This document shows positions 746 to 22,833 of a stretch of DNA of 64,000 nucleotides, one piece after another. Both the position numbers and the translations under genes were made by a program. Origin of the DNA: Polaribacter glomeratus (lineage in GTDB: Bacteria; Bacteroidota; Bacteroidia; Flavobacteriales; Flavobacteriaceae); contig NZ_MSCM01000001.1 in the NCBI RefSeq assembly GCF_002954665.1, positions 2,323,893-2,387,892 on the forward strand, in the 5' to 3' direction. The stretch's first letter is position 1. Each line of letters starts with the position of its first letter. The notes below the pieces were generated by a model. It was not told the DNA's origin and did no database searches. It was given only the letters and a program-made list of their open reading frames with translations.

Positions 746-2224
746 TTAATATGCTTTTGCAAAAAGCACCCTTTTTAAAGAAGGATTCCCAGTTAATACA
801 CAAATACCAATTTCTTCTTTTGCATCGTTAGGAATACACCTAATAGTAGCTTTTGTATACTCTTTGATCCTTTCTTCTGTTTCTGATGTTCCATCCCAAT
901 GTGCAGAAACAAAACCACCTTTATTCTTTATCGCTTTTTTAAATTCATCAAAAGTTGTTACCTCTGTTGTATGTTCATTTCTAAAATCGGTTGCTTTCTT
1001 AAATAAGTTATCCTGTATTTCAACCAATAAAGTATCAATAAAATTAACAACATCATCCTGAGAAACAATTTGCTTCTCTAAAGTATCTCTTCTGGCAACT
1101 TCTACTGTATTATTTTCTAAGTCACGACTTCCAATAGCCATTCTAACAGGAACTCCTTTTAATTCATACTCTGCAAACTTTGCTCCTGGTCTGTAGGTAT
1201 CTCTATCATCATATTTAACAGAAATTCCTTTTTTGCGTAATTCTTTTACAATTTCATTTACTTTTTCTGAAATAGCAACTAATTGCTCATCATTCTTATA
1301 AATGGGAATAATTGCCACTTGAATTGGCGCTAATTTTGGAGGTAAAACTAACCCTAAGTCATCAGAATGCGTCATAATCAATCCACCAATTAAACGAGTG
1401 GAAACTCCCCAAGAAGTAGCCCAAACATATTCTTGCTTGCCTTCTTTTGAGGTATATTTTACATCAAACGCTTTTGCAAAATTCTGACCTAAAAAATGGC
1501 TGGTTCCTGCTTGCAAAGCTTTTCCGTCTTGCATTAAGGCCTCTATAGTAAAGGTTTCTTCTGCACCTGCAAAACGTTCACTTTCAGATTTAGAACCCTT
1601 TATAACTGGCATTGCCATAAAATTTTCTGCAAATTCCGCATATACTTCTTGCATTTGTTTTGCTTCTATTACCGCTTCGTTTTTGGTTGCATGTGCAGTA
1701 TGACCTTCTTGCCATAAAAATTCTGCTGTACGCAAAAACAAACGGGTTCTCATTTCCCATCTTACCACATTTGCCCATTGATTAATTAACAACGGTAAAT
1801 CCCTGTAAGACTCAATCCAACCTTTGTAAGTGCTCCAAATAATTGCTTCGGATGTTGGCCTAACAACCAACTCTTCCTCTAATTTAGCCTCTGGATCTAC
1901 TCTTAATTTACCAGGATTATCTGGGTCGTTTTGCAAACGATAATGGGTTACAACTGCACATTCTTTTGCAAAACCTTCCGCATTTTTTTCTTCAGCTTCA
2001 AACAAACTCTTAGGCACGAAAAGCGGAAAATATGCATTTTGATGTCCTGTTTCTTTAAACATTCTATCTAACTCTGCTTGCATGTTTTCCCAAATTGCAT
2101 ATCCGTAGGGTTTTATAACCATACAACCTCTAACTGCTGAATTTTCTGCTAAATCGGCTTTTACCACCAATTCGTTATACCACTTAGAGTAATCTTCTGT
2201 CCTTTTTGTTAACTTCTTGCTCAT
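746..2224 (-). CDS. proS: prolyl-tRNA synthetase, archaeal/eukaryotic-like (type 3)
   Basis: This cytoplasmic class II enzyme charges tRNA-Pro with proline using ATP. At 492 residues it matches the short archaeal-type form without the bacterial editing insertion. RPTSE lies at residues 122-126, motif 2 with paired Arg residues around 155-170, and the protein ends in FAKAY, the family's Tyr C-terminus. The C-terminal zinc-binding module looks degenerate: only the Cys of RCIP and one Cys of GICVLTG remain where relatives carry four. It is upstream of tRNA-Glu and rpsT but separated by a promoter, so probably a separate unit. Confidence 0.96.
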
Positions 2225-13010: not shown

Positions 13011-13044
13011 TTGCGTTTCTATTCAAAAATTAATTATATATTTG
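13011..13044 (+). promoter_or_regulatory. promoter of rpsO
   Basis: TTG (13011-13013), 23 bases, TATATTTG (13037-13044), in the accD-rpsO gap. The -7 element is a perfect match; the spacing is slightly long. Confidence 0.6.
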
Positions 13045-13096
13045 CAGCTTCAATGAAAGCATTGATATACATAATAATCATTTAAATAATATTGGC

Positions 13097-13366
13097 ATGT
13101 ACTTAACAAAAGAAGTAAAAGAAAGCATCTTCGAAAAGCACGGTAAAGGTAAAAACGATACTGGTACTTCAGAAGGACAAATTGCGTTATTCACACACAG
13201 AATTAACCATTTAACTGAGCATTTAAAAAGAAATCGTAAAGATTTTAATACAGAGCGTTCGTTAGTAATGATGGTAGGTAAGCGTAGAAGATTATTAGAT
13301 TATCTTAAGAAATCTGAAATCAATAGATATCGTGCAATTATTCTAGAATTAGGAATTAGAAAGTAA
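13097..13366 (+). CDS. rpsO: 30S ribosomal protein S15
   Basis: An 89-residue primary 16S rRNA-binding protein of the small subunit. The conserved S15 blocks GTSEGQIALFTHRINHLTEHL and a basic RSLVMMVGKRRRLLDYL region are both present, and length is exactly that of the family. It stands upstream of pnp, the common bacterial rpsO-pnp order, but here a terminator and a separate promoter lie between them, so the two can be transcribed independently. Confidence 0.98.
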   Translation: MYLTKEVKESIFEKHGKGKNDTGTSEGQIALFTHRINHLTEHLKRNRKDFNTERSLVMMVGKRRRLLDYLKKSEINRYRAIILELGIRK

Positions 13367-19328: not shown

Positions 19329-19387
19329 ATTCTTCGTATCTTAGTAACTCAATTTAAGAACGATAAAAATACTAAAATAGTTTGTCA

Positions 19388-20176
19388 ATGAATACCGAAA
19401 AAGTAGCAGAATATATTATTAATTGGTTAAAAGAGTATGCAACCAATGCAAAAGTAAATGGATTTGTAGTTGGTGTTTCTGGCGGAATAGATTCTGCATT
19501 AACCTCAACTTTATGCGCAAAAACAGGTTACCCAACTTTATGTGTAGAAATGCCTATTCATCAAGCAGAAAGTCAAGTTTCTAGAGCAGAAGAACATATT
19601 GCACAACTTAAAAAGCGTTTTGCTAATGTTTCTGAAGCAAGAGTTGATTTAACTTCAACTTTTGAAGATTTTAAAAATGTATTGCCAAGTGTAGCGCATT
19701 CTGAAAAGTTAGATTTGTCTTTGGCAAATACAAGAGCACGTTTAAGAATGACTACTTTGTATTATTTTGCTGGCTTACAAGGATTATTAGTTGCCGGAAC
19801 AGGAAATAAAGTAGAAGACTTTGGTGTTGGTTTTTACACAAAATATGGCGATGGCGGCGTAGATTTAAGTCCGATTGCTGATTTAATGAAATCTGAAGTC
19901 TATCAATTAGCAGCCTATTTAGGTGTACCAAATTCCATACAAAAAGCACAACCTACAGATGGGTTATTTGGCGATAGCAGAACAGATGAAGATCAAATTG
20001 GTGCTTCTTACGATGAATTAGAATGGGCAATGAATATGAAAGAAAAAGGTAAAACTGCTGCTGATTTTTCTGGAAGAGAAAAGGAAGTACTTAAGATTTA
20101 TACGCGTTTAAACACCATAAATCAACATAAAATGTTAGCAATACCTGTTTGCAAAATTCCAAAAAAAATTATGTAA
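19388..20176 (+). CDS. nadE: NAD synthetase (ammonia-dependent)
   Basis: A 262-residue cytoplasmic enzyme that converts deamido-NAD and ammonia to NAD with ATP. The ATP-PP loop is VSGGIDSAL (about residues 31-39). GTGNKVEDFGVGFYTKYGDGGVDLSP gives the deamido-NAD-binding block, and ADLMKSEVYQLA follows. It lacks an N-terminal glutaminase domain, so it would use free ammonia. I start at ATG 19388; a TTG two codons earlier is possible but less likely. A terminator follows that also serves the convergent small gene. Confidence 0.96.
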   Translation: MNTEKVAEYIINWLKEYATNAKVNGFVVGVSGGIDSALTSTLCAKTGYPTLCVEMPIHQAESQVSRAEEHIAQLKKRFANVSEARVDLTSTFEDFKNVLPSVAHSEKLDLSLANTRARLRMTTLYYFAGLQGLLVAGTGNKVEDFGVGFYTKYGDGGVDLSPIADLMKSEVYQLAAYLGVPNSIQKAQPTDGLFGDSRTDEDQIGASYDELEWAMNMKEKGKTAADFSGREKEVLKIYTRLNTINQHKMLAIPVCKIPKKIM

Positions 20177-20198
20177 ACCAGTATTGTAGAGCAAAAAA

Positions 20199-20230
20199 AA
20201 ACGTCTTAACTATAATTAGCTAAGACGTTT
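20199..20230 (+). terminator. bidirectional terminator between nadE and the first microprotein gene
   Basis: Perfect 10-bp stem AAACGTCTTA / TAAGACGTTT with A runs before and T runs after, so it can stop nadE (plus) and the 43-codon gene at 20248-20379 (minus). Confidence 0.85.
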
Positions 20231-20247
20231 TTCTTTCTGTATCTTTT

Positions 20248-20379
20248 TTATAATAAGTTTGCAGAAATCATCATTCTTTTAATTTTCTGATAAGCTCTTC
20301 TTTTAGAACCTTTGGAAATTTCAAATGGTAAAAAGATGAATAATTGAATGATTTTTAGTATTTGTAATGTTCTTTTCAT
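20248..20379 (-). CDS. 43-residue microprotein, paralogue A
   Basis: An open frame of 43 codons: hydrophobic N-terminal half (MKRTLQILKIIQLFIFLP) and a basic half with SKGSKRRAY, KIKR and a terminal ANLL. It aligns without gaps to the 43-residue product of 20542-20673 at 24 of 43 positions, including MKR, ILKI, LP, IS.GSK, KIK, MI.A and LL, which is strong evidence that both are translated. A TAnnTTTG element lies 27 bases upstream and a terminator 18 bases downstream. I do not recognise the family; it may be an amphipathic, membrane-associated peptide. Confidence 0.7.
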   Translation of the reverse strand: MKRTLQILKIIQLFIFLPFEISKGSKRRAYQKIKRMMISANLL

Positions 20380-20405
20380 GATGCATAGGTTTCTTTTTCT
20401 TAAGA

Positions 20406-20413
20406 CAAATGTA
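20406..20413 (-). promoter_or_regulatory. -7 element for microprotein A
   Basis: Minus-strand TACATTTG, a perfect TAnnTTTG, 27 bases before the ATG. A matching -33 element is not evident. Confidence 0.5.
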
Positions 20414-20443
20414 CAAAAAAAATTAGAACTTTGATTTAAAGAG

Positions 20444-20466
20444 AAAAGGGAAAAACCCCCTTTTTT
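20444..20466 (-). terminator. possible terminator after microprotein B
   Basis: Hairpin AAAAGGG / CCCCCTTTTTT with a 5-base loop, in the gap between the two small genes. The T run is stronger on the plus strand, but the only gene that would need it is the minus-strand gene at 20542-20673. Confidence 0.45.
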
Positions 20467-20541
20467 AAAATCAGGTTAAAATATAGATAGTTAAAAATGA
20501 GAAAATTACTTTAAAAAACGAACCTTAACAACTTAAACATT

Positions 20542-20673
20542 TTACAATAATCGAGCATTAATCATTAACTTTTTAATTTTAACAGAAGCACTTTTTTTTG
20601 AACCATTAGAAATATCTAAAGGCAATCTAAGCAGTAATGCAACAATCTTTAAAATTTCAAATACTCTTTTCAT
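20542..20673 (-). CDS. 43-residue microprotein, paralogue B
   Basis: A second 43-codon frame: MKRVFEILKIVALLLRLP, then DISNGSKKSA, VKIKKLM and a terminal ARLL. It matches paralogue A (20248-20379) over its full length at 24 of 43 residues with no gap, while the flanking DNA does not align. A TACTTTTG promoter element sits 27 bases upstream, the same distance as in paralogue A. It lies downstream of dnaG on the same strand but has its own promoter. Function unknown; possibilities include a membrane-active regulator or a type I toxin-like peptide, neither supported further. Confidence 0.7.
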   Translation of the reverse strand: MKRVFEILKIVALLLRLPLDISNGSKKSASVKIKKLMINARLL

Positions 20674-20699: not shown

Positions 20700-20707
20700 C
20701 AAAAGTA
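20700..20707 (-). promoter_or_regulatory. -7 element for microprotein B
   Basis: Minus-strand TACTTTTG, a perfect TAnnTTTG, 27 bases before the ATG, the same placement as for paralogue A. Confidence 0.55.
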
Positions 20708-20829: not shown

Positions 20830-22833
20830 CTAAACGACTCTTTTTAGTTTCTCTGAAAGTCGAATTCTTAACGAATTATAACTCATAATCTCCTCTTTTT
20901 CCTCATTTGTGTATTCTTTACCTTGTACTAAAAACTCATCTACCAACCTATCAATTAAAATTCTGCGTAAATTATAAATTACATCAGAAACCGCTTTTGG
21001 CAATACTTCAAAAGCAGACTTAACCTCAATACTTTTACCGCCCCAGTTGCTTAATTGGTACTTTTCTTCATCCATTAAAATAGAAGTAACTGTAGTTGCA
21101 ATATCTAAATTTTTGTTATTAATAAATTTATCTATTTCTAATTTTTCAGATTGATTTAACTGATGAATCATTTCTGTATAAATTTCTTGAAAAAGAGGAT
21201 TTGTAAATTCTATTTCATCTTCTTGTAAGTGTAAATAAATTTCTGCACAAACTAAGTTTTGATACTTTCTGTTTGAAAAAGTTTCTTTTCCGTCTTCATC
21301 AATGTTACTAACTTCTTCAGAAAAATCTACCTCTTCATTACCATACAATAACAAAATCTTTATAATTTCATTTTCTAGAATTGATAGTTGATCTACTTTT
21401 TGAGAAGATATTTGCACACCTTTAACAAGTGCCATTGAAGATTGCTCTTGCTCATAAAAATATTCTGCAGGCGGCTCATTTGGATCTGCATTATTAGTAT
21501 AGTTAGAACTTGGTTTATTTCTTTGAGTAGCCTCTTTTTTTAGTAACTGCGCTAACTCACTAAATAATACGCGCTCAGAAATATCCATGATTCTTGAACA
21601 TTCTTGTACGTATACTTCTCTTTGAATTCCATCCGGAATTTTAGAAATACTTGTTACAATATCTCTAATTACGGTTGCTTTTTTTATAGGATCGTTATTA
21701 GAATCTTTTAGTAATAGCGATACTTTAAAATTAATAAAATCTTGCGCTGAGGTTTCTAGATATTCTTTTAACTCAGCATTTGTATGTGATTTCGCAAAAC
21801 TATCTGGATCTTCTCCATCAGGAAACTGAACCACTTTAACATTCATTCCTTGTTCTAGAATTAAATCTATTCCGCGAATGGAAGCTCTAATTCCGGCTGC
21901 ATCACCGTCAAAAAGTACTGTTATGTTTTTTGTTAATCTGTTTACTAATCGTATTTGATCTGATGTTAAAGCCGTACCTGAAGATGCCACAACATTCTCT
22001 ACGCCAGATTGATTAAAGGAAATAACATCTGTATATCCTTCCACTAAAAAACAATTATCTTGTCTTGCAATTTCTTTTTTGGCTTGATAAATTCCGTATA
22101 AAATTTTACTTTTATGGTAGATATCACTTTCTGGAGAATTTAAATATTTAGCCGCTTTTTTATCCGCAGTTAAAATTCTACCACCAAAACCTAAAATACG
22201 CCCAGACATTGACTGAATTGGAAATAACACTCTTCCTTTAAAACGATCAAACTGTTTGTTTTCTTTCACTATTGAAAGACCGGTTGATGCTAAATATTTT
22301 AGATCATAGCCCTTTGCTAAAGCTGCTTTTGTAAAATTATCCCATTCATCTAAACAATATCCTAACTGAAATTTTTTAATCGTTTCATCTGTAAAACCAC
22401 GTTCTTTAAAGTAAGACAAACCGATGGCTTTCCCTTGGTTTGTGTTGAGCATTAAATTATGAAAATAATCTTTTGCAAAATTAGACACCAAGAACATACT
22501 TTCTCGTTCATTAGTTTGCTCTTTTTGCTCATCAGATTGCTCTGTTTCTTCAATTTCTATATTGTATTTTTTGGCTAACCATTTTAAAGCTTCGGGATAC
22601 GAAAAATGCTCGTGTTCCATTAAAAAAGAAACTGAGTTCCCTCCTTTTCCTGTAGAGAAATCTTTCCAGATTTGTTTTACAGGAGAAACCATAAATGATG
22701 GTGATTTTTCGTCTGTAAAAGGACTTAATCCTTTAAAATTACTTCCTGCTTTTTTTAGCTGAACAAACTCACCAATAACCTCCTCTACTCTCGCAGATTC
22801 GAAAATTCGGTCTATGGTACTTCTAGAAATCAT
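20830..22833 (-). CDS. dnaG: DNA primase lacking zinc-ribbon ligands
   Basis: A 667-residue primase that lays RNA primers for replication forks. The N-terminal region keeps the shape of the DnaG zinc ribbon (GLSPFTDEKSPSFMVSP and a later GKGGNSVSFLM), but the expected Cys-His and Cys-Cys ligands are replaced by Ser37, Thr40, Asp58 and Thr61. The RNA polymerase domain follows with RGRVLFPI-like GRVLFPIQ and the TOPRIM blocks LVEGYTDV and VLFDGDAAG; the C-terminal part is the divergent helicase-binding region. The same substitution is, to my recollection, common in Flavobacteriia. Confidence 0.96.
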   Translation of the reverse strand: MISRSTIDRIFESARVEEVIGEFVQLKKAGSNFKGLSPFTDEKSPSFMVSPVKQIWKDFSTGKGGNSVSFLMEHEHFSYPEALKWLAKKYNIEIEETEQSDEQKEQTNERESMFLVSNFAKDYFHNLMLNTNQGKAIGLSYFKERGFTDETIKKFQLGYCLDEWDNFTKAALAKGYDLKYLASTGLSIVKENKQFDRFKGRVLFPIQSMSGRILGFGGRILTADKKAAKYLNSPESDIYHKSKILYGIYQAKKEIARQDNCFLVEGYTDVISFNQSGVENVVASSGTALTSDQIRLVNRLTKNITVLFDGDAAGIRASIRGIDLILEQGMNVKVVQFPDGEDPDSFAKSHTNAELKEYLETSAQDFINFKVSLLLKDSNNDPIKKATVIRDIVTSISKIPDGIQREVYVQECSRIMDISERVLFSELAQLLKKEATQRNKPSSNYTNNADPNEPPAEYFYEQEQSSMALVKGVQISSQKVDQLSILENEIIKILLLYGNEEVDFSEEVSNIDEDGKETFSNRKYQNLVCAEIYLHLQEDEIEFTNPLFQEIYTEMIHQLNQSEKLEIDKFINNKNLDIATTVTSILMDEEKYQLSNWGGKSIEVKSAFEVLPKAVSDVIYNLRRILIDRLVDEFLVQGKEYTNEEKEEIMSYNSLRIRLSEKLKRVV

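Follow-up and report, generated by a model that had tools for sequence, protein, structure and literature searches.

CydX, KdpF and MetS are small accessory subunits of membrane proteins, and SpoVM-like proteins are amphipathic microproteins of the membrane surface. A third kind of very small protein is represented by the chromosomal type I toxins Ldr and ZorO/ZorP, the latter duplicated as zorO/zorP (PMC3919570, PMC8309996). The family that we describe here resembles these toxins in being small, hydrophobic, duplicated, lineage-restricted and intergenic, but it differs from them in showing no conserved antisense promoter, in its short inferred leader, in its presence in most sampled genomes of its genus, in its second, basic helix and in being under purifying selection. 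The family is like CydX, KdpF and MetS in being tiny, helical and of putative membrane type, with one subfamily directly following a permease gene; unlike them, its main copies lie beside nadE and dnaG and not in a transporter operon, and no significant match was obtained in Pfam (best 0.021, one member) or NCBIfam (best 0.12). With SpoVM-like proteins it would share a short amphipathic helix, yet it belongs to a different phylum and has a second, basic helix.

The window, that is, the whole 64,000-nucleotide stretch of Polaribacter glomeratus DNA that was analyzed, contains two members of this family, copies A and B (Table 1). They are minus-strand frames of 43 codons, each starting with ATG, which align without gaps at 24/43 identical residues, precisely as the original prediction had described them. 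Neither PHROGs (best 0.0045, one of 41 members) nor PADLOC (best 0.031, one member) gave a significant match, PDB sequences contained no relative (best E 0.18), and Rfam had no match at the pair at gathering score. Literature searches over titles and the beginnings of abstracts brought up nothing on such a microprotein family. As far as these library and literature searches show, the family thus appears to be undescribed, its general kind, the lineage-restricted microprotein, being known.

Table 1. Positions of the microprotein genes and associated features (window coordinates unless a locus is named)
Feature	Position	Strand	Basis
Copy A (nadE-side), 43-residue microprotein gene, MKRTLQILKIIQLFIFLPFEISKGSKRRAYQKIKRMMISANLL	20248..20379	-	ORF list, alignment, dN/dS, tree
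Copy B (dnaG-side), 43-residue microprotein gene, MKRVFEILKIVALLLRLPLDISNGSKKSASVKIKKLMINARLL	20542..20673	-	ORF list, alignment, tree
TACATTTG, promoter-like element before copy A, Bacteroidetes -7 type	20406..20413	-	Motif position; consensus in PMC6847099
TACTTTTG, promoter-like element before copy B, -7 type	20700..20707	-	Motif position
Hairpin bounded by runs of A and T, a likely terminator in both directions (copy A and nadE)	20193..20236	.	Fold of minus strand
nadE, convergent neighbour, synteny anchor	19382..20176	+	Name from the original prediction
dnaG, next gene upstream, same strand, synteny anchor	20830..22833	-	Name from the original prediction
Far-side second copies	L079 8683-8814; L083 11304-11435; L217 4618-4758; L218 2733-3023		
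Permease-linked loci, with gap in bases	L087 6; L170 13; L167 195; L086 63; L210 6; L211 198; L212 13; L214 11		

Coding status, distribution and age of the copies

It is nearly certain, judging from sequence comparison, that copies A and B are genuine genes. A copy-versus-copy search of the whole 4.06-Mb genome recovered the other paralog at E 8.1e-9; the DNA differences between the two fall at codon positions 1, 2 and 3 in 12, 9 and 21 of 43 codons, respectively, with a third-position excess (p = 0.019), and in their flanks, compared without gaps, identity is limited to 49/120 and 30/100 bases. (A third and far weaker match in the same genome, on contig 2 at E 0.64, lies antisense within a longer frame and was taken as chance.) The dN/dS ratio is 0.32 for the window pair, 0.04-0.22 for copy A against five orthologs, and 0.23, 0.24 and 0.57 (closest pair), plus one saturated value, for copy B against its orthologs. 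Among the 56 copies with a length of 132 bases, which served for pairwise dN/dS, the palindrome tests and the column counts, the Nei-Gojobori median is 0.22 over the 358/1540 pairs with a usable synonymous distance, pairs that are mutually non-independent and in which paralogs are mixed. The larger, 67-copy set excludes copies with non-ATG starts as well as L035, which is on the same contig as L059; three GTG-start copies were added for the tree and the ortholog dN/dS, and three off-locus peptides for the tree.

Three copy-B orthologs carry GTG in place of ATG at the same codon. Adenine is enriched upstream of the 58 copies counted (L077 was left out), reaching 0.74 at -3 and 0.67-0.83 at -10 to -13, and more weakly 0.50 at -6; a study of F. 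johnsoniae names -3, -6 and an upstream A-rich region (PMC6847099). Against coding speak a frameshift near codon 29 in copy A of P. filamentus, the ratio of 0.57 in the closest copy-B pair and stops in several extra copies. The original prediction of translated paralogous genes had named two outcomes that would speak against it, a lack of homologues in relatives and a dN/dS close to 1 accompanied by frameshifts; what we found instead were relatives in most sampled genomes of the genus, purifying selection with the median given above, a start codon that is kept and adenine enrichment at -3 and -10 to -13, all of which argues that the copies are probably translated. An out-of-frame ATG lies 7 bases 5' of the copy A start (window 20380-20386) and is also present in P. 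filamentus; start competition between the two is possible.

A 41-row profile (E <= 0.001) matches 101/116 same-genus genomes, the window's own included and drawn from Polaribacter and Tenacibaculum records, two of these matches being weak (about 6e-4); it matches 0/78 other relatives, and the matching genera number 1/42. With a two-row profile (E <= 0.1), matches were obtained in 51/58 same-genus genomes and in 42/45 of the good-quality ones. In a family-wide sample 4/299 genomes match, three of them from the same genus, and in an order-wide sample 13/393, twelve of them from the same genus, most genomes in both samples having been scored on 24 or 18 first-look candidates, such that distant relatives could be missed. 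The named records with a family match are three of Polaribacter and one of Tenacibaculum, and a search centred on the matching Tenacibaculum genome drew the same genus sample. Matches outside the genus were ascribed to chance: one (G089) lies inside a 962-codon frame, another (G614) covers 17 columns with a stop, and the remaining three (G080, G105 and G204, E 0.006-0.009) were made by the permease-type profile. Because profile matches outside the genus are thus either absent or chance-like, the microprotein family appears to be confined to one genus, as far as our searches reach. Phage, plasmid and viral contigs were also searched for family homologs; none were found, and a mobile origin was discarded on this ground.

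In the tree, which was built on 43 columns and in which many forks are unresolved and the bootstrap has not settled, copy B groups with P. filamentus, G024, G042, G009 and the second copy of G029 (support 98/85), and copy A falls into a separate set of four rows (support 98/80). Since the tree places each copy in a separate supported set, the pair is not the product of a recent local duplication; by the same tree both copies have been kept through several species, and their duplication predates several species splits. What emerges is an orphan family of microproteins, clean and well sampled and with no counterpart in the curated libraries searched, that is seemingly confined to one well-sequenced marine genus and in which duplications, losses and changes of genomic partner can be traced species by species.

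The slot between nadE and dnaG and its putative control signals

At a distance of no more than 1.2 kb from nadE there are 59 ATG-start copies, distributed over 51 loci; all 59 are on the strand opposite to nadE, which is the dnaG strand wherever dnaG was found, and 10 of the 51 loci hold two or three copies when GTG-start copies are counted. The conserved nadE-dnaG location that the original prediction had listed as a point to check is therefore supported, but only within the genus, the slot being genus-specific among the loci examined. A LuxR-type response regulator frame, running on the nadE strand, occupies this gap in 27 of the 29 other genera that were examined (29 of the 59 nadE loci from other genera were covered). 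These frames, all within the set L129-L157 (e.g. L130 730-1359), were identified by motif search, and receiver and GerE domains were confirmed for one of them. In the Polaribacter-Tenacibaculum loci that were read, the gap is either too short for a response regulator or filled by microprotein genes. An origin of the family on the strand antisense to the response regulator gene was considered and rejected, as a six-frame search of the 29 other-genus loci returned no convincing profile match (best E 0.42).

Five genomes, 2.1-2.8 Mb in size, are without the nadE-side gene; in these the nadE stop and the aligned dnaG end are 13, 13, 82, 45 and 157 bases apart, and one of them (L086) keeps a permease-linked copy. 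Because the nadE-dnaG copy is missing from these five genomes, it is dispensable. One set of 13 genomes included four without a nadE match (L166 was left out of further analysis). Where the gene is present, its 3' end overlaps that of nadE in 24/59 copies, 22 of them sharing 9 bases with it and two sharing 4, and the last codons are therefore read on both strands; the fixed length of this convergent overlap can be seen, for example, at L057 6020-6151 and L088 4889-5014. In four genomes a second copy is located beyond the nadE-gldB-gldC cluster, approximately 3.3-6.3 kb away.

Each window frame is preceded by a TAnnTTTG element, as had been noted before; it starts 34 bases before the ATG, the earlier figure of 27 bases being correct when counted to its near end. 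Both elements fit the consensus -7 element of Flavobacterium (PMC6847099). Within -70..-20 of the 59 copies, TAnnTTTG occurs in 19 (3.9 expected) and TAnnTTGC in 17 (1.2 expected). The -7 element implies a short leader of about 20-25 bases. On the 3' side of copy A, a hairpin with a U run at its end folds at -22.7 kcal/mol (z -7.96, 0/200 shuffles as good), and three of three hand-chosen downstream stretches of relatives likewise fold strongly (z -4.7 to -6.3); a simple terminator scan listed nothing in this stretch of the window. Elsewhere in the window, positions 13037-13099 carry an S15-Flavobacteria ribosomal protein leader RNA (Rfam RF03161).

A different element, GTGAC-N15/16-[CT]GTC, is found 47-50 bases 5' of the ATG in five copies among 67 upstream regions scanned, its carriers being 5/24 of the copies that overlap the nadE end, and a similar GTGAC-type element precedes 3/14 copies in further loci. 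We take this element to resemble an ECF-sigma promoter, a likeness for which a literature search found nothing. The exact form GTGACN15YGTCTAA occurs five times in four genomes (reversed control 0), three times at family copies, once 5' of a DUF4197 gene and once between listed frames. The DUF4197 site, GTGAC-N15-TGTCTAA, lies about 40 bases before frame 761-1474(-) of L197 (G047 C1:282084-282110). The presence of the element at both family copies and a DUF4197 gene hints at a small envelope regulon.

Predicted protein and permease-linked subfamily

In the 56 equal-length copies, P18 is invariant (56/56), followed by G24 and K34 (55 each), L13 (54), I21 and I33 (53 each) and N41 (49). Polar residues recur at positions 2, 3, 6, 9, 12, 20 and 23 in the region of the N-helix, and positions 26, 27, 28, 32, 34 and 35 are polar in 56/56 copies, mostly K or R; the net charge ranges from +5 to +12. 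An AlphaFold model (pLDDT 77.5, pTM only 0.43) has helices at 2-21 and 26-39, and the predicted layout is that of an amphipathic-to-hydrophobic N-helix ending in LPFEIS, which is connected by a Pro-Phe-Glu-Ile-Ser-x-Gly joint to a second, basic helix. The membrane contact suggested by the original prediction is at best plausible: the mean hydrophobicity of the N-helix, about 1.0 (range 0.72-1.37), is in keeping with it, but K9 and Q12 are conserved inside the helix, and because of this conserved charge within a hydrophobic stretch the N-helix may not be membrane-bound.

The LPFELSKGKKRK-type subfamily, which has a tree support of 100/99 (four members in the tree), immediately follows one permease-like gene, in the same orientation, at nine loci; all nine copies have open frames, the ninth (L216) being without a clear start codon; at L172 the permease-linked copy is degenerate. 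In the 58-genome sample, the nine closer permease loci (53-100% identity) comprise four with an open copy, one with a degenerate copy and four with none, the window's own genome belonging to the last group, and five distant permease loci (35-37%) have no copy; linkage to the permease is therefore not obligatory. Five further permease-linked loci are biased toward linkage because they were reached through the microprotein search. Of two permeases tested, neither matched Pfam and one gave a weak NCBIfam match to cytosine permease, far below the cut-off. Copies A and B of the window are not encoded with a transporter.

Possible function

The family is conserved and under purifying selection, its duplication is older than several species splits and, in the window, each copy is equipped with a promoter-like element. 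It is best read, in our opinion, as one of inner-membrane-associated accessory or regulatory microproteins, although we put this reading somewhat short of an even chance. Each copy would be made as a free-standing protein, the amphipathic N-helix (2-21) of which would rest on the inner leaflet of the cytoplasmic membrane or be embedded in it, with the SKGSKRR turn and the basic second helix (26-39) facing the cytoplasm. The microprotein could then dock on a partner, either an integral membrane protein or anionic lipid, and tune the partner's activity or stability. The nadE-dnaG copies would represent the basal form, one subfamily would be tied to a permease-like transporter, and some of the nadE-overlapping copies would be under a seemingly alternative (ECF-like) sigma factor, such that the duplicates may serve different conditions. 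A bolder and rather doubtful extension is that genus-specific microproteins took the response-regulator slot, duplicated with housekeeping and ECF-like promoters and seeded a permease accessory-peptide subfamily, amounting to a radiation into different membrane partners.

The same properties can be read otherwise. If the conserved (S/Q)KKRxYxRIKK segment bound RNA or DNA, with the N-helix as dimer interface, the microprotein would be a nucleic-acid or ribosome-binding one; its net charge, the polar, mostly K/R positions 26-28, 32, 34 and 35 and the dnaG neighbour would all be consistent with this. However, so hydrophobic an N-helix would be unusual in a soluble 43-mer, the permease linkage of one subfamily suggests a membrane setting and no relative was found among PDB sequences, and we consider such a role unlikely, if still deserving of attention. 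Marginally less probable is a coding gene with no membrane or partner role readable from the sequence, such as one that regulates a soluble enzyme, a possibility with which the lack of a significant domain match and of a pathway shared by nadE and dnaG would agree, but with which the hydrophobic N-helix and the permease linkage of one subfamily would not.

A type I toxin-like or membrane-damaging peptide silenced by antisense RNA is, in turn, improbable and disfavoured. Size, tandem copies, narrow distribution and the existence of extra and decayed copies resemble what is seen in zorO/zorP, and the frames qualify as short hydrophobic ORFs. Nevertheless, in a scan of TAnnTTTG-type promoters over 120 bases upstream and 100 downstream, antisense elements occur at chance frequency (5/59 upstream, 5.3 expected; 4/59 downstream, 3.4 expected), and the 18/59 found within the genes (8.2 expected) include 16 at one place, in the codons of the conserved ANLL end; with no conserved promoter found, an antisense RNA antitoxin was rejected. 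The short inferred leader, the carriage of the family under purifying selection by most sampled genomes of the genus and the lack of a significant PADLOC match likewise speak against a toxin. Least probable by far, and also disfavoured, is that a regulatory RNA or a DNA palindrome is the conserved object and the frame incidental. The idea has its origin in the PFEISKG codons, the DNA of which is nearly self-complementary; but synonymous shuffles reach the observed 14.82/20 in 139/1000 cases (null 14.54 +/- 0.24), the palindrome disappears where a residue changes, dN/dS is well below 1 in most comparisons and no Rfam match at the pair reaches gathering score. As the palindromy of the joint does not exceed what its codons impose, the palindrome was dismissed as a conserved object.

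The copies in L060, L066, L078 and L085 have other, unrelated neighbours, and a third type of extra copy (PFAISKGQ) is present at L169 4922-5029 and L213 3989-4162, the one in L169 carrying an in-frame stop and adjoining a cellulase-domain gene.
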